From NCBI RefSeq assembly GCF_900626135.1, contig NZ_LR130785.1:374023-438022 (forward strand): a DNA stretch of 64,000 nucleotides, written 5' to 3'. The notes beneath the pieces were generated by a model. It saw nothing but the letters and a program-made list of their open reading frames with translations, was not told the origin of the DNA and did no database searches. Position numbers and translations under genes: made by a program. Below are positions 10,444 through 25,771 of this stretch, piece after piece. Numbering within the stretch: position 1 is the stretch's first letter; each line of letters opens with the position of its first letter. This stretch comes from Senegalia massiliensis. Lineage in GTDB: Bacteria > Bacillota > Clostridia > Tissierellales > SIT17.

Positions 10444-11139
10444 GTGAAATATTATGAACTAACTAATACTGTATATTTATATAAAGATATATATTTTACT
10501 AAAGCAAATGAAATGATTTCTAATTTTATTAATGAAGCTTTGTATTTAAATAATCAATTATCAAAGTTTCATAAAAAAAATGAATTTAAAGGATATGTTT
10601 ATGATTCATTATTCCCTAGGGAAAATGATAAAACATACAAAAAAGGTAGCATATATGTTTTTAGAATAAGAAGTATAAATAAAGAATTGCTAACTAAGTT
10701 AGAAAAGTTATTAAAGAAAATTAATTCAGAATATATGAAATTAATAGCTACAGAGTTAAAAGTTTTTAAACCAAAATTCATTAATAGTATTTATACTGCT
10801 ACACCTGCTATAGTAACTTTAGAGAATGGATATTGGACCAAAAATGAAGAAATAGAGATACTTATAGATAGAATTATAAAGAATACTGTTAAAAAATATA
10901 AACATTTTATTGATGAAGACATTCCTTATGATTTTGAGTTTTTTAAAACGATTGAAATTGAAAATATGAAACCTATTGCAATAGAGTATAAAGACATCAA
11001 GTTATTAGGAAATAAATTCAAATTAGAAATTAAAGAAGATGAACTATCTCAAAACATCTCTAATTTATTATTAGGTACAGGTATATTAGAAAAAAATTCT
11101 AGCATAGGTGCTGGATATTGTATTCCAAGATATATATAA
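10444..11139 (+). CDS. cas6: Cas6, CRISPR RNA endoribonuclease
   Basis: Cuts the precursor crRNA within each repeat, leaving the 8-nt tag. The 231-residue protein has the RAMP ferredoxin-like pattern and ends with the Cas6 glycine-rich loop GTGILEKNSSIGAGYC. The GTG start has the ribosome site AGGTGG 7 nt before it and gives the expected MKYYELTNTVYL N terminus. A histidine (H41 or nearby) may serve in catalysis, but this is not certain. It opens the cas operon and must process repeats of both arrays, which differ at two bases. Confidence 0.93.
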   Translation: MKYYELTNTVYLYKDIYFTKANEMISNFINEALYLNNQLSKFHKKNEFKGYVYDSLFPRENDKTYKKGSIYVFRIRSINKELLTKLEKLLKKINSEYMKLIATELKVFKPKFINSIYTATPAIVTLENGYWTKNEEIEILIDRIIKNTVKKYKHFIDEDIPYDFEFFKTIEIENMKPIAIEYKDIKLLGNKFKLEIKEDELSQNISNLLLGTGILEKNSSIGAGYCIPRYI

Positions 11140-11157
11140 AGGAGGAGGTGAAAGTTT

Positions 11158-13810
<2,653 letters not shown>

Positions 13811-13812
13811 AA

Positions 13813-14550
13813 ATGGAAGCGTTAAAATTTAATATTAAAGGCTCTACTGCCTTCTTTAAAAAACCAGATGTAAATGCCTATGCATATTTTAGCTATGGAA
13901 ATATACCTAAAATTGCACTCTTAGGAATATTAGGTTCAATCTTAGGATTAGGTGGATATAATCAGCAAAAAGAAGATGAAATTTACCCCGAATTTTATGA
14001 AAAACTTAAAGATTTAAAAGTATCTATTATTCCTAATACAAAAAAAGCTTACTTTGCCAAGAAAATACAAGTATTTAATAATAGTGTAGGATATGCAAGT
14101 AAAGAACAAGGTGGAAACTTAATAGTAAGAGAACAGTGGTTAGAAAACGTAAATTGGACGATATATATCTTAAATGATGGAAATATAGATAAAAACTTAT
14201 ACAATAAATTAAATGATTATTTACTGAATAATAAAACACATTTTATACCCTATCTAGGGAAAAATGATCATCCTGCTAATATAATGAATGTAGCATATAT
14301 AAAGTTAGAAGAGGTTAAAAGTTACGATAAAATAGATTCTTTATTTCCTTATAAGGATGTAAAACTAGGAAAAGGTACAAGTGATGGTAAGCTAGAATTT
14401 TTATATAAAGAATACCTCCCAGTTAGTTTAAATAAAGAACTTAATTTCTATGAATTAGAAGAATTATCTTTTACAAATTATAGGATAAAAGAAATAGATC
14501 ATAAAGATAGAGTATATTCTGACAAAGAAAAAAATTTATATTTTATTTAA
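13813..14550 (+). CDS. cas5: Cas5, crRNA tag-binding subunit
   Basis: RAMP subunit that caps the 5' tag of the crRNA in Cascade. The 245-residue protein begins EALKFNIKGSTAFFKKPDVN and has the glycine-rich run GILGSILGLGGY near residues 36-47, as in type I-B Cas5. It follows cas7 with a 2-nt gap, so the two are translationally coupled. It is followed by a hairpin that separates the Cascade genes from cas3. Confidence 0.92.
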   Translation: MEALKFNIKGSTAFFKKPDVNAYAYFSYGNIPKIALLGILGSILGLGGYNQQKEDEIYPEFYEKLKDLKVSIIPNTKKAYFAKKIQVFNNSVGYASKEQGGNLIVREQWLENVNWTIYILNDGNIDKNLYNKLNDYLLNNKTHFIPYLGKNDHPANIMNVAYIKLEEVKSYDKIDSLFPYKDVKLGKGTSDGKLEFLYKEYLPVSLNKELNFYELEELSFTNYRIKEIDHKDRVYSDKEKNLYFI

Positions 14551-14552
14551 AT

Positions 14553-14576
14553 AGAGCTTGGTTTGAACCAAGCTCT
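14553..14576 (+). terminator. Perfect hairpin between cas5 and cas3
   Basis: AGAGCTTGGTT and AACCAAGCTCT form an 11-bp stem with almost no loop. No T run follows (TATGATAG), so it may be an attenuator, an RNA-processing or stability element rather than a full terminator. It lies 26 nt before the cas3 start. Confidence 0.55.
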
Positions 14577-14601
14577 TATGATAGGGGGCTAGACTATACT
14601 C

Positions 14602-17169
14602 ATGTACTTAATCAATATAAGTAATTATGTAAAAAATAAAGATAGATATCTTGCTCATAAGAAAAAGGGGAAGAAAAATGAAACACTAAAAGAGCATCTA
14701 GATAAAACTATAGAATATTACAATAAACTATGTGATAAGAAGCAATTAGATACTATAATTAAAAATACTATTGATGAAATAAGATTAGAGGAAAGAAAGT
14801 TAAATCATGAAGAACAAGAATTTATTTATAAATTATTTATAAATTCTATATATCTTCATGACTTAGGAAAAATTAATGTAGTATTTCAAAAAAAGAAAAT
14901 GGAAAAAAGTATTAGTGGTGTAAAATATAGAAGACTTAATAATAGTGAGCATAGTTTAATATCTAGTTTACTATATATAGCAATTTTTAATGAAGAAATA
15001 AAGTTAATAAAAGATTATGATTTTAAAAGATTAGCGGAACACATCATGTATATAAATAGTTATAATATGTCCAGACACCATGGATACTTAAAAGATTTAG
15101 AGGGATATAAAAATAAGTTGGAAAATTTAAAAAATAAAATAAAGGAGCATCCTGATTATATAATAGATTATATAGGACCAGATATAAGTGATTTAGATTT
15201 TAAAGAATCTAGTTTTTTAGGATATAAAAACTATAGTGAAAACGATTTTTACGGGAGATATGAAATTTATATATTAGAAAAACTACTTTATTCTATTATA
15301 GTTAATTGTGATTTCTATGCAACTTATGATTATATGAACAGTGAACCTATAGATGAATTTGGAGAGTTAAGAGACTTAAATGAGCTAAAAGGAGCTTACT
15401 ACAATACCAATATATATAAAGGAATATATAAATATAAAAAATATAAAATGAACTTATTAGAAGAGAATCCTTTCGGAGAAAATTCTATAAACACATTAAG
15501 AAGCGAGATGTTTTTAGAAGCAGAAGAGAATTTATTAAAAAACATAAATAAAAACATCTTTTATATGGAAGCTCCTACAGGTAGTGGTAAAACTAATACT
15601 TCTATAAATTTAGCTTTAAAATTAATTAATCAAAATAAAACTTTAAAAAAGATATTTTATATCTTTCCATTTAACACATTGATAGAACAAACAGAGAAAA
15701 GCATAAGAGAGATCTTCACTAAAAAGGATTTTAAAGATTTTATAAAAATAATTAATTCAATCACACCTATAATCGAAGAGAGTGAGTATAAAGGACAAGA
15801 GGTATATAGTTCTATTGATTATGATAAAAAATTATTAGATATACAAATGCTACATTATCCCTTAATCATGACAAGTCACGTAAATTTTTTTAGATATCTA
15901 TTTAGTGGTTCTAGAGAAGCAAATTTAGCTTTATTACATCTTTCTAATAGTGTAGTAATAATTGATGAAATCCAAAGTTATAAAAACCAAATTTGGAAAG
16001 AAATAATTGAATGCTTTTCTAAAATATTTAAATTATTAAATATGAAAGTTATTATAATGTCCGCTACTCTACCAAGGCTAGATAAATTAGTAAGTGAAAG
16101 AGAAGATATATTCACAGAACTTATAATAGACAAAGAAAAATATTATAAGAGTCCATTTTTTAAAGATAGAGTTAAATTAGATTTTAGTCTACTCAAAAAT
16201 TCTGAATTTAATGATCCAGAAAAAGGGAAAGAAGAGTTGATAAAAAAAATACAAGAAGTATGGAAAGAAAAGAAAAAAAGAATATTAATAGAATTTATAA
16301 AGAAAGAAGATGCTAGAACTTTTTATAACTTAGCTAAAAAAGAATTTCCAAATAAAAGAGTAGTAGAAATAACAGGAGATGACAATAGAATATATAGAAA
16401 AGAAATATTGGATGAGTTAAAGAGTAAAGATGATAATGAAGAATTTATATTGAAGGATATTCTGATAGTAGCAACCCAGGTAATTGAAGCAGGTGTAGAT
16501 ATAGATGTGGATATAGGATTTAAAGATATATCTACAATAGATTCCGAAGAACAGTTTTTAGGAAGAATTAATAGATCTTGTAAACGTGAGGGACTTGCCT
16601 TCTTCTTTAACTTAACAGAAGCTAATAAAATCTATAGAGGCGATTTAAGATTAAATAAAGATTTAAGATATGAAAGGTATCAAAAGATATTGATAGAAAA
16701 GGAATTCAGTGAATTTTATGAAGAATGCTTAAAAAATGTAGAGAATAAAAAAGAAGAATTAAATGAAAATAATATAAATAATTTTTATTCAAAAATGAAA
16801 TATTTAGATTTTCAAGAGATAGATAAACATATGAGTTTAATTGAAGATAATAAATACCAAGTTTATCTTCCTTATACTATAAAATATATAGAAGAGAATG
16901 AGGAAAAGGAAATAGATGGAGAAAAAGTTTGGAGAGAATTTAAGGAACTTTTAGAAAACAAAAAACTAAAGTATGCAGAAAAAAGGATTAAATTATCTTC
17001 TGTACAAGCTAAAATGGATTATTTTATATTTAATTTAGGTGAAAAACCTCAGAAGTACGAAGAGAATATTGGAAATTTATTCTATATTCAAAACGAAGAA
17101 GATTATATAATAGATGGAAAATTTGATAGAAAAAAGTATCTAAATGAGAGTGAGGATATCTTTATATGA
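14602..17169 (+). CDS. cas3: Cas3, HD nuclease-helicase
   Basis: Degrades target DNA after Cascade binding. The 855-residue protein has an N-terminal HD nuclease domain (H86 D87 in YLHDLGK). An SF2 helicase follows: Walker A APTGSGKT near 324-332, DEIQ box near 455, SAT motif near 487, and motif VI FLGRINRS near 650. All core motifs are intact. A GGGGG ribosome site sits about 14 nt upstream. Its 3' end overlaps cas4 by 4 nt. The HD-first fused form is normal for I-B. Confidence 0.95.
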   Translation: MYLINISNYVKNKDRYLAHKKKGKKNETLKEHLDKTIEYYNKLCDKKQLDTIIKNTIDEIRLEERKLNHEEQEFIYKLFINSIYLHDLGKINVVFQKKKMEKSISGVKYRRLNNSEHSLISSLLYIAIFNEEIKLIKDYDFKRLAEHIMYINSYNMSRHHGYLKDLEGYKNKLENLKNKIKEHPDYIIDYIGPDISDLDFKESSFLGYKNYSENDFYGRYEIYILEKLLYSIIVNCDFYATYDYMNSEPIDEFGELRDLNELKGAYYNTNIYKGIYKYKKYKMNLLEENPFGENSINTLRSEMFLEAEENLLKNINKNIFYMEAPTGSGKTNTSINLALKLINQNKTLKKIFYIFPFNTLIEQTEKSIREIFTKKDFKDFIKIINSITPIIEESEYKGQEVYSSIDYDKKLLDIQMLHYPLIMTSHVNFFRYLFSGSREANLALLHLSNSVVIIDEIQSYKNQIWKEIIECFSKIFKLLNMKVIIMSATLPRLDKLVSEREDIFTELIIDKEKYYKSPFFKDRVKLDFSLLKNSEFNDPEKGKEELIKKIQEVWKEKKKRILIEFIKKEDARTFYNLAKKEFPNKRVVEITGDDNRIYRKEILDELKSKDDNEEFILKDILIVATQVIEAGVDIDVDIGFKDISTIDSEEQFLGRINRSCKREGLAFFFNLTEANKIYRGDLRLNKDLRYERYQKILIEKEFSEFYEECLKNVENKKEELNENNINNFYSKMKYLDFQEIDKHMSLIEDNKYQVYLPYTIKYIEENEEKEIDGEKVWREFKELLENKKLKYAEKRIKLSSVQAKMDYFIFNLGEKPQKYEENIGNLFYIQNEEDYIIDGKFDRKKYLNESEDIFI

Positions 17170-17660
17170 AAATTACAGGAACTATGATAAATTATTATTT
17201 TCACTGTAAAAGACAATGTTGGCTATTTTCTAATCGTATAAATCTAGAGGATAATAGTGAAGATGTAAAGATAGGTAAAATACTTCATATTTTAAAAAGT
17301 GAAGAAAATAAAACTACAGAGCTTTCTATTGAAAATATAAAGATAGATAGATTAACTGATGATTATTTAGTTGAAATTAAAAAGTCAGATGCAGATATAA
17401 ATGCTGTAAAATGGCAAGTTTTATTATATTTAAAAACACTTAAAGAAAAAGGCATAGATAAAAAAGGTATGATTGAAATTATTGAAAAGAAAAAGCAGGA
17501 TAAAAAGATTCATTATGTAGAATTAGATGATGAAAGGTTAAAAGAATTAGAAGAAATTTTAGAAAATATAAATATTTTAATTAATATCAATAGCCCTCCA
17601 GATCCAATTAATGAACCAAAGTGTAAGAACTGTGCTTATTATGAATATTGCTATATATAA
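17166..17660 (+). CDS. cas4: Cas4, Fe-S nuclease for spacer acquisition
   Basis: PD-(D/E)XK nuclease that trims prespacers and sets PAM choice and orientation with Cas1-Cas2. 164 residues. Cluster cysteines are C14 (with C18 nearby) at the N terminus and C153, C156, C162 at the C terminus. The catalytic strand shows LVEIKKSD. The ATG overlaps the cas3 stop (ATGA), so the two are coupled. Confidence 0.93.
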   Translation: MKITGTMINYYFHCKRQCWLFSNRINLEDNSEDVKIGKILHILKSEENKTTELSIENIKIDRLTDDYLVEIKKSDADINAVKWQVLLYLKTLKEKGIDKKGMIEIIEKKKQDKKIHYVELDDERLKELEEILENINILININSPPDPINEPKCKNCAYYEYCYI

Positions 17661-17666
17661 GAAAGG

Positions 17667-18677
17667 GTGAGAATAATTAAAGGTCATACAAGATATTTAA
17701 TGTCTAGAGGTGAACTAAAACGAAAAGATAATTCCATAGTATTTAAAAATGAAAAGGGTAATTTCTATATTCCTATTGAAGGTATAAGAGAATTATATTG
17801 TATGAATGATATGACAGTAACTACAAAACTTTTAGATTTTATATCAAAAGCAGGGGTAGTCATTCACTTTTTTAATTATTATGGACATTATAGTGGAACA
17901 TATTATCCAAAGAAACAACTAATTAGTGGAAGTTTAAAAATAAAACAAGCTACTACATACTTAGATAGACGGCTTATTATAGCTAAAAAAATAGTTGAAG
18001 GCATTGCAGTAAATATAGCTGAAACGTTATACCACTATTATAAACATGGAAAAAAAGATATTAAACCTTTGATAGATTGGTTGAGAAAAGATATACCTAA
18101 TATGTTAAGCAAAGAAATAAACATAAAACAAATATTATTTATAGAAGGACAAATATGGCAGAATTTTTATGCTACCTTTAAAAACATATTAAGAGAAGAA
18201 TTTGTATTTAATAAAAGAGTTAAAAGACCACCAGATAATCCATTAAATGCTATGATTTCATTTGGAAATTCTCTCTTATACACTAAAACCATTTCTCAAA
18301 TATACAATACCCATCTAGATCAGTCTATAAGTTTTTTACACGAACCAATGGAAGGAAGATTTTCTTTAAGTTTAGATATAGCAGAGGTATTTAAACCTAT
18401 AATAGTATTTAAAACAATTTTTGACTTAGTAAATAATAGAAAAATTAGAGTAGATAAGCACTTTGAAAAGAAAGTTAATTATTGTATTTTAAATGAAAAA
18501 GGAAGAAAAATATTCATACAAGAATTTGAAAATAGGATAAATAGTGTATTTTTGAATAAGAGATTAAATAGAAAAACTACGTATTTGACAGCAATAAAAT
18601 TAGATGTATATAAACTTATAAAATATATAGTAGAAGATAAAGAGTTTGTACCCTTCAATCTAAAGGAGAGTTGTTAA
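17667..18677 (+). CDS. cas1: Cas1, CRISPR integrase
   Basis: Integrase subunit that inserts new spacers at the leader end. The 336-residue protein has the metal triad E160, H225 (in FLHEPMEG) and E240 (in LSLDIAE), and the N-terminal GELKRKDNSI pattern. The nominal GTG at 17667 lies inside the ribosome site AGAAAGGGTGA; the true start may be the in-frame ATA at 17673 or ATT at 17676, correctly spaced. It follows cas4 by 6 nt and touches cas2. Confidence 0.95.
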   Translation: MRIIKGHTRYLMSRGELKRKDNSIVFKNEKGNFYIPIEGIRELYCMNDMTVTTKLLDFISKAGVVIHFFNYYGHYSGTYYPKKQLISGSLKIKQATTYLDRRLIIAKKIVEGIAVNIAETLYHYYKHGKKDIKPLIDWLRKDIPNMLSKEINIKQILFIEGQIWQNFYATFKNILREEFVFNKRVKRPPDNPLNAMISFGNSLLYTKTISQIYNTHLDQSISFLHEPMEGRFSLSLDIAEVFKPIIVFKTIFDLVNNRKIRVDKHFEKKVNYCILNEKGRKIFIQEFENRINSVFLNKRLNRKTTYLTAIKLDVYKLIKYIVEDKEFVPFNLKESC

Positions 18678-18965
18678 ATGGGTAAAATAAAGAACTATAA
18701 TTACGCTTTTGTACTATATGATGTAAATGAAAAAAGAGTACATAAGGTATTCAAGGTATGTAAAAAATATCTCAATCATTATCAAAAGTCTATTTTTAGA
18801 GGAGATATTACTACATCTAAATTAATTGCTTTAAAAAATGAATTATATCAAATTATAGATCCATCAGAAGATTTTATTTCTATAATTAAATTAGTAAATA
18901 AATCAAGTTTTGGAGAGGAAATATTGGGAACACCTCAGAAAGATGTAGACAGTATGTTTATATAA
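18678..18965 (+). CDS. cas2: Cas2, integrase structural subunit
   Basis: Forms the Cas1-Cas2 complex for spacer integration. 95 residues with a ferredoxin-like fold and D15 in AFVLYDVNEKR. The ATG directly follows the cas1 stop, with AAGGAGAG upstream inside cas1. Leader 2 begins two bases after its stop codon, so the adaptation genes and array 2 are directly joined. Confidence 0.94.
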   Translation: MGKIKNYNYAFVLYDVNEKRVHKVFKVCKKYLNHYQKSIFRGDITTSKLIALKNELYQIIDPSEDFISIIKLVNKSSFGEEILGTPQKDVDSMFI

Positions 18966-18966
18966 A

Positions 18967-19141
18967 TTTACCAAGTGATAAGTTTATTTTATATGTTATA
19001 AAGACTCTATTTTACTAGTTGATAGGGAAAATTATAGAAATATTAATAACTATATTTTTAAGTTGGGAAAATTGTTGAAGAATAGTAATATGTACACACT
19101 AGAGCCGAATTTAAAGAAAATAAAATATGTATTTTACAGTA
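18967..19141 (+). promoter_or_regulatory. CRISPR leader 2
   Basis: Begins with TTTACCAAGT and ends with TATTTTACAGTA, as leader 1 does at nearly the same distance from its first repeat. A weaker promoter candidate is TTGGGA (19063-19068), 17 nt, TAATAT (19086-19091). The middle parts of the two leaders differ strongly. Confidence 0.7.
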
Positions 19142-22100
19142 GTGGAATCTTAACAAAAGTTGTATTTAAATATATCAGCGTTTCTGTTAAATGCAATTGC
19201 AGGTTGTGGAATCTTAACAAAAGTTGTATTTAAATATGCTCTTATATCGTTGTTTAATGTTCCATCAAATGGTGGAATCTTAACAAAAGTTGTATTTAAA
19301 TGGAGTATTCCACTTTTGTTCTCCTGAATAAATACTAGTGGAATCTTAACAAAAGTTGTATTTAAATACTTTACAGGTTTGCCGGACGGGAAAGCCGAGA
19401 ATGTGGAATCTTAACAAAAGTTGTATTTAAATCTCCATTCCCTGCTACAGTTTGCTCTATAACGCCAGGTGGAATCTTAACAAAAGTTGTATTTAAATCT
19501 TTGAAACGCTCTATTCATATTACCTCCTTAATCGTGGAATCTTAACAAAAGTTGTATTTAAATATGCAACAGAGGAAGATTTGGACAAGCATAATCAGAG
19601 TGGAATCTTAACAAAAGTTGTATTTAAATATTGCAGGCGATAGCATAGGTTGTGCTTTAGTTCCTGGGGTGGAATCTTAACAAAAGTTGTATTTAAATCT
19701 TATAAAGACAGAGGTATAAGAAGTAAAGTATTTAGTGTGGAATCTTAACAAAAGTTGTATTTAAATATTGCACCTAATGCACTTATAATTGTGCCGACTA
19801 CTACTGTGGAATCTTAACAAAAGTTGTATTTAAATTTAGATTCAAAACGTTTGCTACAATCAATGTTAATACGTGGAATCTTAACAAAAGTTGTATTTAA
19901 ATTATACACTATCTTGTAATGTATTAGCTACCTTTCTTAGTGGAATCTTAACAAAAGTTGTATTTAAATTTTCTTCCTATCCCCTTTCTCATTTACGCAT
20001 ACTGGGTGGAATCTTAACAAAAGTTGTATTTAAATCAATAACTAGAGGAAATAAAACAGAGACAATGTATATGTGGAATCTTAACAAAAGTTGTATTTAA
20101 ATATAAAAAGTGGGATAGTTAAAATATTAAAAGCTATAGGTGGAATCTTAACAAAAGTTGTATTTAAATTTATAGTGGTAGAGAAGAAAACAAGCAAAAA
20201 ACTGAGTGGAATCTTAACAAAAGTTGTATTTAAATGACACAAATGGACTAGCTATAAGCTTTAAGAACATAGTGGAATCTTAACAAAAGTTGTATTTAAA
20301 TAGTTTTCCCTGATTTTCAAAGTCTAAAATTGTAACAGTGGAATCTTAACAAAAGTTGTATTTAAATTTTATTATATATATGAATAATCCCTATTCCTAT
20401 AATGTGGAATCTTAACAAAAGTTGTATTTAAATGGAACAGCAAGATATTTTAATATATTTTTATTAAGTGTGGAATCTTAACAAAAGTTGTATTTAAATA
20501 ACTCACCGTTTGCAACCATTTCATCAAGTCTATTTGTGGAATCTTAACAAAAGTTGTATTTAAATAATTTAAAAGTGTATAACAATATAAACATATAATT
20601 TGTGGAATCTTAACAAAAGTTGTATTTAAATAATAAAACAATCAGAAGGTGTAGTAATTGATTTTGCGTGGAATCTTAACAAAAGTTGTATTTAAATAGT
20701 AAACCACGTAATCCACCTTTTAGTTTATCGAATGTGGAATCTTAACAAAAGTTGTATTTAAATTTTCTACAGCCTTTATTAGTTCTTCTTCCAGCTTTTG
20801 TGGAATCTTAACAAAAGTTGTATTTAAATAAAAGAATATATTTCTTTTGAACAACAATTAGTTGGGTGGAATCTTAACAAAAGTTGTATTTAAATAAAAG
20901 AACCTAGGGCCTTAATAGCCCCAGGTTTTAAGTGGAATCTTAACAAAAGTTATATTTAAATTTTCTACTATTCCTCCTCATATTGCGTACATACTATGTG
21001 GAATCTTAACAAAAGTTGTATTTAAATAGGAGGACTAGACTTCGATTTAAACTTAATAGAACTGTGGAATCTTAACAAAAGTTGTATTTAAATACCCTTG
21101 TTAAACACTTTTTATTGTTTGGTAATACGTGGAATCTTAACAAAAGTTGTATTTAAATAGAGTGCATCTTCCATAGATTTTAATCTTTCTTCATGTGGAA
21201 TCTTAACAAAAGTTGTATTTAAATTTACTTGAATTACTTGTAGAACTGTTTGAAATATTAGTGGAATCTTAACAAAAGTTGTATTTAAATATTTGTTTCA
21301 GTTTTCATGATGTACCCAAATTCATTGCGTGGAATCTTAACAAAAGTTGTATTTAAATAGTAGAAAATGCACTCCATAAATCTGCAATAGGTTAGTGGAA
21401 TCTTAACAAAAGTTGTATTTAAATTAAATATAACGTAGAACAAAAAGACTTAAAAATAGAAGTGGAATCTTAACAAAAGTTGTATTTAAATATATTACAT
21501 CTGCCTCTATTCTAGCTAATCCACTAGGTGGAATCTTAACAAAAGTTGTATTTAAATTCAAAAGAGTAAAGAGATGGATTTGCTTTATCCCACGTGGAAT
21601 CTTAACAAAAGTTGTATTTAAATTCATTATATTTAACATATTATCATAATTTTTGTAATGTGGAATCTTAACAAAAGTTGTATTTAAATCTATTAGTAAT
21701 GGACTTAAGAAAGTATAAAGGTGATATGTGGAATCTTAACAAAAGTTGTATTTAAATTATTATCCCTGAAATAGAAATAACATATAGCACAGAGTGGAAT
21801 CTTAACAAAAGTTGTATTTAAATGTTTTATTTGTAGTACTGTTTACACTTCTAACATAGTGGAATCTTAACAAAAGTTGTATTTAAATGTAGTTACTCTT
21901 TCCTTAAGTGATTCTACTCTTTTCAGTGGAATCTTAACAAAAGTTGTATTTAAATTTTAATCACCTGCCTATACTCTATACCCTCTATTTGTGGAATCTT
22001 AACAAAAGTTGTATTTAAATTCTAATTCACCTACCTTTATGTTAAAGAGGGGAACTGTGGAATCTTAACAAAAGTTGTATTTAAATTGTATGGCAAGGCC

Positions 22101-22350
22101 GTGGGGGCAAATTCAATACAATGTGGAACCTTAACAAAAGTTGTATTTAAATTATTGTAAGTCTTGTAAATCCCAACCTTCAGTTCTTGTGGAACCTTAA
22201 CAAAAGTTGTATTTAAATTTATTTAAAACAGGCCACAGTATAGAAGATATTAGGTGGAACCTTAACAAAAGTTGTATTTAAATAAATAAAGGCAATTATT
22301 ATTTATATTTATGTTTAGCGGTGGAATCGTAACAGAAGTTATATTTAAAT
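19142..22350 (+). CRISPR. CRISPR array 2, type I-B, 49 repeats and 48 spacers
   Basis: A 30-nt repeat beginning GTGGAATCTTAACAAAAG and ending GTATTTAAAT occurs 49 times with spacers of 34-39 nt. It differs from the array 1 repeat at positions 7 (T for C) and 15 (A for G). Repeat 28 (20932) has one further change. Repeats 46-48 (22123, 22189, 22254) carry C at position 7 as in array 1. The terminal repeat (22321-22350) is degenerate: GTGGAATCG start, G at 15 and TTATATTTAAAT end. Same + orientation as array 1. From 22351 to 22516 nothing clear was seen except AT-rich DNA. Confidence 0.98.
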
Positions 22351-22516
22351 ACAAAAATTTATTAATATATCTTGAACTTAAAAAATATACATGTGTTGAT
22401 GAGATTGTAAAAAAGGCACATATATATAATATAAAATCAAAAGTATGATTTCACATAACACACCACATAATTAATCCAAACTTTCTTGGGTATACTATTC
22501 TTAAGGAGGTTTATAA

Positions 22517-23824: not shown

Positions 23825-23906
23825 TTTGTTGCTATTGTATTTTGTTTGCTTTATAACTTTCAAGGTAATATAATTAAGTTATATTATAATAAAAAGGAAA
23901 GTGAAT

Positions 23907-24368
23907 ATGAAGCAAAATAACAAGAAAAAAATATCATATTTAGCTGTTTTTATATGGATGGGTGCAATATTTTATTTGTCTCATCAATCTGGAGATAGCT
24001 CTGGAGGTTTGAGCTCGGGAATAACAGAAATGGTGTTAAATATGATAAATACTATATTTCCATCTTTAAAGGTGGATATGGATTTATTTCACCATATTAT
24101 AAGGAAATTAGCACATTTTACTGCTTATTTTATACTTGCTATACTCGTTATAAATGCACTTAGAATAAGTAATATTTTTGGATTTAAATCAATAATAATA
24201 GCTCTTTTAATATCAATAATATATGCAGCAACAGATGAGTTTCATCAGTCGCTTATACCAGGAAGAGGACCATCTATAAAAGATGTATTTATAGATAGTT
24301 TTGGTGCTAGTTTTGGACTAGCTATATATTTTGTATTTTCTAAACTTAAAAAAAGGAGAGTTTCATGA
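23907..24368 (+). CDS. VanZ-like membrane protein
   Basis: Small protein of the VanZ family with about four helices. Typical conserved stretches are present: FYLSHQSGDSS, HFTAYFILAIL and the ATDEFHQSLIPGRGPSIKDVFIDSFGA region. The GTG at 23901 is inside the ribosome site; the ATG at 23907 fits better. Its 3' end overlaps the next gene by 4 nt (ATGA), so they are coupled. Function of chromosomal VanZ homologues is mostly unknown; some affect teicoplanin resistance. Confidence 0.85.
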   Translation: MKQNNKKKISYLAVFIWMGAIFYLSHQSGDSSGGLSSGITEMVLNMINTIFPSLKVDMDLFHHIIRKLAHFTAYFILAILVINALRISNIFGFKSIIIALLISIIYAATDEFHQSLIPGRGPSIKDVFIDSFGASFGLAIYFVFSKLKKRRVS

Positions 24369-25519
24369 AGAAATATAATACAATTATAAATGTGATTGGG
24401 GATAATAATGATTTTAATATAGTTGCCACACATGCATTTAATCCTCAGAAATTGGTACTTATTCATGATGGTAGTGATGAGAAAAAGGCTTATTCAGATG
24501 ATATAAGGGATTATTATAGAAAAAACTTTAAAGATATAGAAATAATAGAAGAAACAATATATAGGCCTCTTTATGAAAGTTTAGAAAAAATATTATTTAG
24601 ATATAAAAATGAAGAAGCTGTTATAAATATTACTGGTTCAGATACTTTAGTCAATCTATATATCTATAACTTTTCTCAAATATTTACTATTGATTATGCT
24701 TATTTAGAAGTAGCACATTCAGAGATAATTATATATAGAAAAGGTAAAATAGAAAAAATAAATATAGATTTATATGATATGAATATAGATGATTTTATGT
24801 CTATATCAGGTGGAAAGATACTTTGGGATAATACTCCAAAATATAATGATGATAAATTAGAAGTCATCTATAACTATATTATAAATAAATATGATAAGTG
24901 GAAAAAAGTAAAGGCTATATTTAAATATAGAAAAAATATAGAGTTTCATGATTATATATATAATAGATTACTTATAAATACAAGTGAATTAGAAGAAGAG
25001 AATATAAACGATTTATTAGAGTTCTTAAATATATTAAAACATATGCATTATATTGAATATAAGTATAGGAAAAATCAAATAAGACTGGATATTAAAAATG
25101 AATTTGCAAAAAGTCTTATATTGATCTCTGGATATTGGCTTGAATTTATAACATATAGTGTTGTAAAAACTTTAGATAATATAGATGACTTAAAAACAGG
25201 TGTTGTATTTTTATGGGATAGAGATGTAGAGGATGTAAAAAATGAATTAGATATTCTTGCATCTGTAGATTCTTCTCTTATATGTATATCTTGTAAGGAT
25301 AGTAAAGGGTATGATCAAGAAGCTTTAAATGAGCTTAATGTGTATAGTAGAAGAATAAGTAAAGGTAAAAATATCGATATTCTCGTAAGCACATATTATC
25401 CACAAAAAGAGAATGTAATAAATAGGGCAAAGGAAATGGATATAAATATTATAGTGTTTGATGGAGATATATCTAAGTTTAGAAATGAATTGCAAAAAAT
25501 AATAAATAATAAAGGGTGA
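24365..25519 (+). CDS. Card1/Can2-like CARF-nuclease homologue (DUF1887 type)
   Basis: Resembles the Card1/Can2 family, in which a CARF domain senses cyclic tetra-adenylate from type III CRISPR and a PD-(D/E)XK domain cuts nucleic acid. 384 residues. The CARF-like part (1-140) has NITGSDTL at 88-95, where the family usually has a TGGTK-type loop. A helical linker region follows. The nuclease-like part has GYWLE (E260), NELD (E294, D296) and ISCK (S309, K311). The usual glutamate of the ExK motif is replaced by S309, so activity may be weak or changed. No Cas10 is in this window. Start ATG overlaps the VanZ-like gene. Confidence 0.7.
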   Translation: MKKYNTIINVIGDNNDFNIVATHAFNPQKLVLIHDGSDEKKAYSDDIRDYYRKNFKDIEIIEETIYRPLYESLEKILFRYKNEEAVINITGSDTLVNLYIYNFSQIFTIDYAYLEVAHSEIIIYRKGKIEKINIDLYDMNIDDFMSISGGKILWDNTPKYNDDKLEVIYNYIINKYDKWKKVKAIFKYRKNIEFHDYIYNRLLINTSELEEENINDLLEFLNILKHMHYIEYKYRKNQIRLDIKNEFAKSLILISGYWLEFITYSVVKTLDNIDDLKTGVVFLWDRDVEDVKNELDILASVDSSLICISCKDSKGYDQEALNELNVYSRRISKGKNIDILVSTYYPQKENVINRAKEMDINIIVFDGDISKFRNELQKIINNKG

Positions 25520-25523
25520 TTTC

Positions 25524-25741
25524 ATGGCAATAAATTATGAAATATTAGAAGAAATAGGATTAATTTCAGAATCTAAATCAGGTTGGAAAAAGAAATTAAA
25601 CCTTATATCTTGGAATGCTAGGGATGCTAAATATGATTTAAGAGATTGGGCACCTGATAAGAAAAGATGGGAAAAGGAATAACACTTACAAAGGATGAAC
25701 TTAAAGAATTAAGAGATGTATTAAATAATATGAATTTATAA
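25524..25741 (+). pseudogene. YdbC/PC4-like small protein, frameshifted
   Basis: The first frame gives MAINYEILEEIGLISESKSG, then WNARDAKYDLRDWAPDKK, and stops at 25682 after 52 residues. A second frame continues from 25667 as MGKGITLTKDELKELRDVL and stops at 25741. Together they match the about 70-residue YdbC/PC4 single-strand DNA-binding protein. One A appears to be missing in the A-rich run at 25659-25667. It may be a real loss, a sequencing error or rarely a shift during translation. The ribosome site AAAGGGTGA follows the Card1-like gene directly. Confidence 0.75.
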
Positions 25742-25771
25742 AAATGTGGATATTTTAATCCACATTTTTTA
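25741..25771. terminator. Bidirectional terminator
   Basis: AAATGTGGAT pairs with ATCCACATTT around ATTTTA, with A and T runs on the two sides. It serves the + strand ydbC unit and the - strand nitroreductase gene. Confidence 0.8.

Follow-up and report, generated by a model that had tools for sequence, protein, structure and literature searches.

An orphan CARF–PD-(D/E)XK protein of Senegalia massiliensis with an altered ligand loop, from a Clostridia-wide clade with a putatively relocated catalytic acid

Can2, Card1 and Cdn1 (7bdv, 6wxw, 9u49) are cA4-activated effectors of type III CRISPR systems that join a CARF domain of the CARF4 type to a PD-(D/E)XK nuclease domain. A gene for a protein of this kind lies near a type I-B CRISPR locus in the stretch of Senegalia massiliensis DNA analysed here, which is 64,000 nucleotides long and is called the window below. 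We asked whether this protein is a nuclease and what it might respond to in a genome in which we detected no Cas10. The features of the locus are listed in Table 1.

Table 1. Position and basis of the CARF gene, its parts and its neighbours in the window
Feature	Position	Strand	Basis or remark
Orphan CARF4–PD-(D/E)XK protein, 384 aa	24365..25519	+	PDLC01881, PF09002, AF2 model, structure alignment
CARF (Rossmann) domain, residues 1-133	24365..24763	+	Model secondary structure and CARF-chain alignments
PD-(D/E)XK nuclease domain, residues 246-384	25100..25516	+	Alignment of 64 rows; PF09002 on residues 253-377
Ligand loop T90-G91-S92-D93-T94, replacing TGG + basic residue	24632..24646	+	Alignment
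Nuclease-site codons E260, E294, D296, S309, K311, E323	25142, 25244, 25250, 25289, 25295, 25331	+	
Type I-B cas operon cas6-8b-7-5-3-4-1-2 (context)	10444..18965	+	PADLOC
CRISPR array, 49 copies of the unit with repeat GTGGAATCTTAACAAAAGTTGTATTTAAAT	19121..22386	.	Distance from its end to the CARF gene about 2.0 kb
VanZ-family membrane protein, translationally coupled to the CARF gene	23901..24368	+	PF04892 E 8.1e-20; NF037970
Downstream PC4/YdbC-like gene with a frameshift in the window	25525..25742	+	PF02229 19.9 bits (cut-off 25) and DNA alignment

Fold and nuclease site of the CARF protein

The PADLOC profile CARF4--CARF_PDDEXK (PDLC01881) matched residues 3-382 of the window protein, which is a full-length match, with an E value of 3.4e-125. 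The Pfam model Card1_endonuc (PF09002) scored 47.6 bits against a curated cut-off of 26.4, and no NCBIfam model matched. Among solved structures, VC1899 was the best match when sequence alone was compared (E 2.6e-4). When a profile of 64 relatives was used, the top solved structures were Can2 and VC1899, and a broader profile added Card1 and Cdn1. An AF2 model built with 64 sequences (mean pLDDT 90.3, pTM 0.86) aligned with VC1899 (PDB 1xmx) at Z 31.4 over 362 residues, with Can2 at Z 28.4 over 328 residues, with Cdn1 at Z 27.9 and with Card1 at Z 24.6 over 339 residues. Chains of Csm6, Cad1, Cam1 and Csa3 matched residues 1-130 of the model at Z 12-15. An earlier note, made from the sequence alone, had described CARF-like and PD-(D/E)XK-like parts and had proposed a comparison of the predicted structure with Card1 and Can2. 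Both parts are present in the predicted fold and the model matches both enzymes over nearly its own full length; the profile match and the structure alignments therefore confirm this description. The gene is present in one copy in its own genome and is under purifying selection, with a dN/dS of 0.165 against the congener G003 (25 nonsynonymous and 31 synonymous differences).

The closest fold is that of VC1899 from Vibrio cholerae, the founding member of DUF1887 / Card1_endonuc; the two proteins are 17% identical. Like the window gene, VC1899 is a single gene without type III CRISPR, and its cA4 pocket is altered (available portions of PMC7969007). VC1899 has IECK and a lysine on the helix, whereas the window protein has ISCK and E323. 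It is the closest orphan for which there are data, and the same portions of that paper describe no nicking of plasmid and only a weak RNase activity that is unregulated by cA4. Can2, Card1 and Cdn1 share with the window protein the two domains and the NExD, WLE/WFE and CK motifs. The window protein differs from them in that no Cas10 partner was found and in having TGSDT for TGG-K, S309 for glutamate and E323 for lysine.

The alignment bears out the view that E260, E294, D296 and K311 are kept and that S309 stands in place of the usual acid. The solved relatives read IECK, VECK or MECK where the window protein reads ISCK, so that the acid of the (E/D)xK half-motif is absent. We found that G256, W258, E260, N293, E294, D296, S309, C310, K311, D312, N322 and E323 are invariant in all 64 aligned rows, with the reservation that one of the scan patterns used to gather relatives contained ISCKD and the invariance of S309 is therefore partly by construction. 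A PF09002 search of 391 genomes, which is independent of that pattern, gave 38 matches: 33 SCK, three ECK, one SCT (beside the Cas10 of genome G202) and one unread. Because S309 is invariant in the 64 rows, it appears to be the normal state of the whole clade and no defect of this copy.

The serine is accompanied by an acid on the following helix. Among 100 distinct SCK motifs from all fetched loci, every one has an acid at position 323 or 320 (98 by pattern, two by eye). E323 is present in 88, and ten have K323 together with an acid at 320, all by pattern; for the remaining two (L100 and L101), inspection by eye gave E320 and E323. The pattern also picked up two ECK motifs, neither of which has an acid at 323 or 320, and the third ECK (G435) is without the N of NExD and hence falls outside the motif pattern. 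The five solved ECK relatives (Can2, VC1899, Card1, Cdn1 and the Dysgonamonadaceae Can2) have lysine at the position of E323; in one of them, 8bao, position 320 is D. The exchange between E323 and E320 with K323 occurs as a single change on the tree and is therefore not replicated.

In the secondary structure of the AF2 model E323 lies on helix 318-332, and the preceding strand, 304-311, bears S309 and K311. At the level of sequence and secondary structure this is the PD-xxK-E pattern, in which the strand acid is missing, the lysine is kept and an acid is present on the next helix. Cfr10I, NgoMIV and others have such a site, with the carboxylate relocated in sequence and its spatial place kept, as set out in the accessible parts of PMC551604 and PMC6344858. 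The site of the window protein looks like this migrated-acid site. The likeness concerns the site only, as the regulation and specificity of Cfr10I and NgoMIV are unrelated. Since S309 is paired with an acid on the next helix in the manner of Cfr10I and NgoMIV, an active nuclease seems likelier than a dead one, and we infer that the catalytic acid may have migrated from 309 to 323 with catalysis kept.

Distribution, neighbours and Cas10

The CARF gene was found, in one copy each, in 46 of 68 species genomes of Clostridium, the genus that supplied most close relatives, and there it tends towards one common chromosomal region. It had no match in phage records, and the plasmid collection gave one record, an 809-kb Peptoclostridium replicon. 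An origin in a defence island or mobile element was considered and rejected on the grounds that there was no phage record, a single large replicon and housekeeping-looking neighbours. The profile fits a chromosomal gene and not a mobile defence module. Two further arrangements were seen among the fetched genomes. Clostridium mediterraneense (L042) has two CARF nuclease genes of the family, two genes apart. Card1-like motifs also occur inside long frames of 1420, 1512 and 1371 aa (G451:C12:21239-21436, G259:C10:10505-10690 and G376:C26:186460-186681, respectively), one of them SCK and two ECK, which suggests fusions to other domains.

Cas10 was searched for throughout the genome of the window (2.87 Mb, completeness 99.08%) and neither the palm2 model PF22335 nor the PADLOC Cas10d model PDLC02057 matched. 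As controls, both models matched in Thermotoga and three archaea, and PF22335 also in E. coli. This supports the earlier note's description of the protein as a homologue of Card1 and Can2 that lacks a type III CRISPR system, and it lends no support to the suggestion, made in the same place, that the protein works with a distant Cas10. The alternative nucleotide maker mCpol (PF18182) was absent from the six genomes searched.

In a class sample of 391 genomes, 29 carry the CARF gene. Of these, 3 had a Cas10 match of 50 bits or more, as did 34 of the 362 genomes without the gene (Fisher p 0.75). Matches to PF22335 below about 35 bits are mostly partial and we take them to be GGDEF proteins. True Cas10 proteins were nevertheless confirmed below 50 bits in G202 (35.9 bits) and G305 (32.7 bits), and the 50-bit cut therefore undercounts. 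The Cas10d model added a fourth gene-bearing genome, G305, which brings the count to 4 of 29, in a re-test that covered the gene-bearing genomes; the gene-less genomes keep about a dozen weaker full-length PF22335 matches (by eye). In all four genomes with both genes, Cas10 is on another contig. In Clostridium, PF22335 alone, with E 1e-6 as the limit, gave Cas10 in 6 of the 68 genomes; 3 of these belong to the 46 that have the CARF gene and 3 to the 22 that do not (Fisher p 0.38).

We also searched the flanks of the gene with 15 type I-B proteins at E 1e-3, a query that suits adaptation genes and not every cas type. In 71 named loci and 20 flanks of more distant genomes (91 flanks) no cas-like gene was matched, and the window alone gave matches. 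In G202, the positive control, a CARF4 protein adjoins Cas10, and the approach is therefore able to detect a linked case. Besides Cas10, this CARF4 gene (L159 677-1936) has a neighbour that looks RAMP-like by eye. The motif of the CARF4 protein is SCT instead of the ECK or SCK of the others, and the protein seems to be a type III-linked one that lacks the catalytic lysine where it is normally found.

The type I-B locus that had been placed 2 kb from the gene is real. PADLOC called Cas6b, Cas8b, Cas7b, Cas5b, Cas3b, Cas4b and Cas1b, and a cas2-like ORF of 95 aa was named from its position and by eye; the operon looks complete. The congener G003 has the same rhomboid-VanZ-CARF-PC4 run with a CARF protein that is 94% identical. 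Its I-B cassette, however, is separated from the CARF gene by about 11 kb, lying beyond a lipoprotein gene and with an unrelated five-gene operon inserted, and it is a different cassette: Cas1 is 40% identical, and Cas8b, Cas7b and Cas5b are best matched by other profiles. The nearness of a I-B system is thus no stable link, and the type I-B neighbour appears to be incidental. It may be added that unlike I-B cassettes occupy the same chromosomal place in the two congeners (window 10444-22386; L106, L107), as if swapped. The congeners G001 and G002 are without the CARF gene. An empty insertion site was sought in G002, but VanZ (51%) is at an unrelated place there and the rhomboid match is only 33%, so no site could be read.

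The stop codon of the VanZ gene overlaps the start of the CARF gene by 4 bp (ATGA), and the overlap is present in both gene-bearing genomes of the genus, the window and G003. The coupling to a VanZ-like protein that had been described for this locus therefore holds in the window, and was seen in the window genus alone, but is not a general feature: in none of the 71 other loci is a VanZ-like gene that clusters with the window's found next to the CARF gene. The PC4/YdbC-like gene is intact in G003, where it encodes 72 aa. A conserved operon partner was sought in the Clostridium loci and none was found; the nearest upstream gene on the same strand is mostly more than 50 bp away, and therefore no such partner stands out. 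A phosphatidylserine decarboxylase-like gene (by eye) is nearby in 53 of 72 Clostridium loci, on the opposite strand. A histidine-kinase-like gene is present in 22 loci and lies directly upstream in 16, at gaps of at least 219 bp, and addAB/sbcCD-like genes (by eye) are upstream in some. In more distant families the neighbours look, by eye, like genes for SMC, SecA, 6-phosphofructokinase and methylenetetrahydrofolate reductase. In G347 and G517 (loci L116 and L120), which represent different genera within a single family, the S-type CARF nuclease gene is immediately preceded on the same strand by what looks, by eye, like a macrodomain gene.

The ligand loop and the candidate signal

Where a TGGTK-type ligand loop had been expected and GSDT noticed instead, the alignment confirmed T90-G91-S92-D93-T94. 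The solved relatives mostly have TGG-K and the window loop has no K or R at positions 92-94. This basic residue is absent in 14 of the 64 rows, including the window and species of several groups, and is retained in the other 50; it has thus been lost several times, in the TGSDT of the window among others. N15, which follows strand 1, is retained in 62 of the 63 other rows. The CARF domain is the more variable part, with a mean column entropy of 2.31 bits against 1.26 bits in the nuclease core.

For CARF families without that basic residue other ligands have been suggested (parts of PMC4012209). The CARF domain of RtcR, a non-CRISPR protein, has a ligand that is not a cyclic oligoadenylate: it binds tRNA fragments with 2',3'-cyclic phosphate ends, according to the available text of PMC7790460. 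The portions of PMC4012209 at hand state that the basic residue after strand 4 is missing in most RtcR members. RtcR CARF is fused to an AAA+ transcription activator, whereas the window CARF is fused to a nuclease. Because the window loop is altered, because of these CARF precedents and because VC1899 is independent of cA4, we see two live options for the sensor, namely a different ligand or a loss of gating. We favour a different ligand, since N15 and the basic loop are retained in most of the clade. The gene stands by itself, its active site is rearranged and its sensor is changed; it therefore probably answers a different signal, and the idea that the protein senses another nucleotide, raised before this analysis, is still the best guess.

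We consider it rather probable that the window protein is an orphan chromosomal CARF–PD-(D/E)XK nuclease whose acid is at E323, which still cuts and which is not gated by a cyclic oligoadenylate from Cas10. The protein is a member of the DUF1887 / CARF4 family and of a clade spread across Clostridia that, in this view, left type III CRISPR; it is presumably dimeric like Can2 and VC1899. The acid of (E/D)xK would have moved from strand position 309 to E323 on the following helix, giving a PD..xxK..E site as in Cfr10I and NgoMIV, and with the acid there metal-dependent cutting of nucleic acid would be retained. The CARF pocket would have stopped reading the Cas10-made nucleotide and would now read another nucleotide or an RNA-end signal, as in RtcR, or would have lost tight gating. 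Its role would then be in a cell-intrinsic stress or phage response, not in CRISPR.

Loss of gating is also the core of an alternative in which the protein is a low-activity housekeeping enzyme like VC1899 that uses its CARF domain for dimerisation only. The absence of the basic loop residue in 14 rows from several groups, while the nuclease columns are invariant, would fit this, as would the location among housekeeping-looking genes and the VC1899 RNase, which in the available portions of PMC7969007 is not regulated by cA4. Against it, N15 and the basic loop are kept in most rows, and between the two congeners dN/dS is as low in the CARF part (0.161) as in the nuclease part (0.182). We judge it unlikely. 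An inactive enzyme, in which S309 killed catalysis and the protein became a nucleotide-sensing or nucleic-acid-binding regulator, is suggested by two relatives. In Cdn1 the acid at the equivalent position is among the residues bridged by a Mg-bound water (excerpts of PMC12825302, whose E323 is, in our reading, the ECK acid), and a T. sulfidiphilus Can2 E302A/K304A double mutant is inactive (PMC7969007, in the portions at hand), the two mutated positions being, again in our reading, those of its ExK motif. Drift would, however, be expected at a decayed site, whereas E260, E294, D296, K311 and E323 do not vary in any of the 64 rows. The earlier note's idea of a non-nuclease is thus weakened, because S309 is fixed in the clade and the catalytic positions and E323 are kept in every row, and we regard a dead enzyme as quite improbable.

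The remaining alternatives give the protein a CRISPR or membrane partner. Its CARF fold, the true cA4 effectors among its near relatives and the 4 of 29 class genomes with both genes would suit an effector of cyclic oligoadenylates whose Cas10 is gained and lost through gene transfer, or was missed by us. Yet two models matched no Cas10 in its own genome, there was no positive co-occurrence in the 391 or the 68 genomes, Cas10 was on another contig in the four genomes that have it, and TGG-K is lost in the window; we give this reading very little credence. Least of all do we expect a partner of the adjacent type I-B system or of the membrane VanZ protein. The array 2 kb away and the VanZ overlap in both gene-bearing genomes of the genus speak for it, but the congener has a different cassette some 11 kb off with an unrelated operon between, and none of the 71 other loci has cas-like flank genes or a VanZ gene clustered with the window's. 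Returning to the nuclease with its acid at E323, a more specific version, which we offer tentatively and rather doubt, is that a CARF nuclease was recruited from CRISPR, became near-core in Clostridium and scattered in Clostridia, and rebuilt its site by a shift of the catalytic acid to the next helix, and that a signal not made by Cas10, for example a host nucleotide or the ends of broken RNA, gates it as a standalone stress- or phage-response nuclease.

Relation to known CARF nucleases

Orphan CARF nucleases are already known (VC1899, and unlinked members in the parts of PMC4012209 consulted), and the PADLOC profile PDLC01881 already covers all 64 members of the clade. The analysis adds three points: an S309/E323 site shared across the clade, a near-core position of the gene in Clostridium that shows no link to Cas10, and a ligand-loop residue that has been lost repeatedly. 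A full-text literature search, whose reach ended short of the CARF classification of Makarova et al. 2020, returned no description of an orphan Clostridium clade. The NCBI name 'DUF1887 family CARF protein' stands on the plasmid-collection match. PADLOC and NCBI labels imply an association with CRISPR, whereas the clade shows none. Annotation tools thus call the protein a CRISPR-associated cyclic-oligoadenylate effector, while most gene-bearing genomes examined have no detected Cas10 to make such a nucleotide. With E309 exchanged for S and K323 for E, a single mutation would suffice to test whether the site is active. If the protein is a gated nuclease, it would represent a second switch for CARF nucleases in common clostridia.
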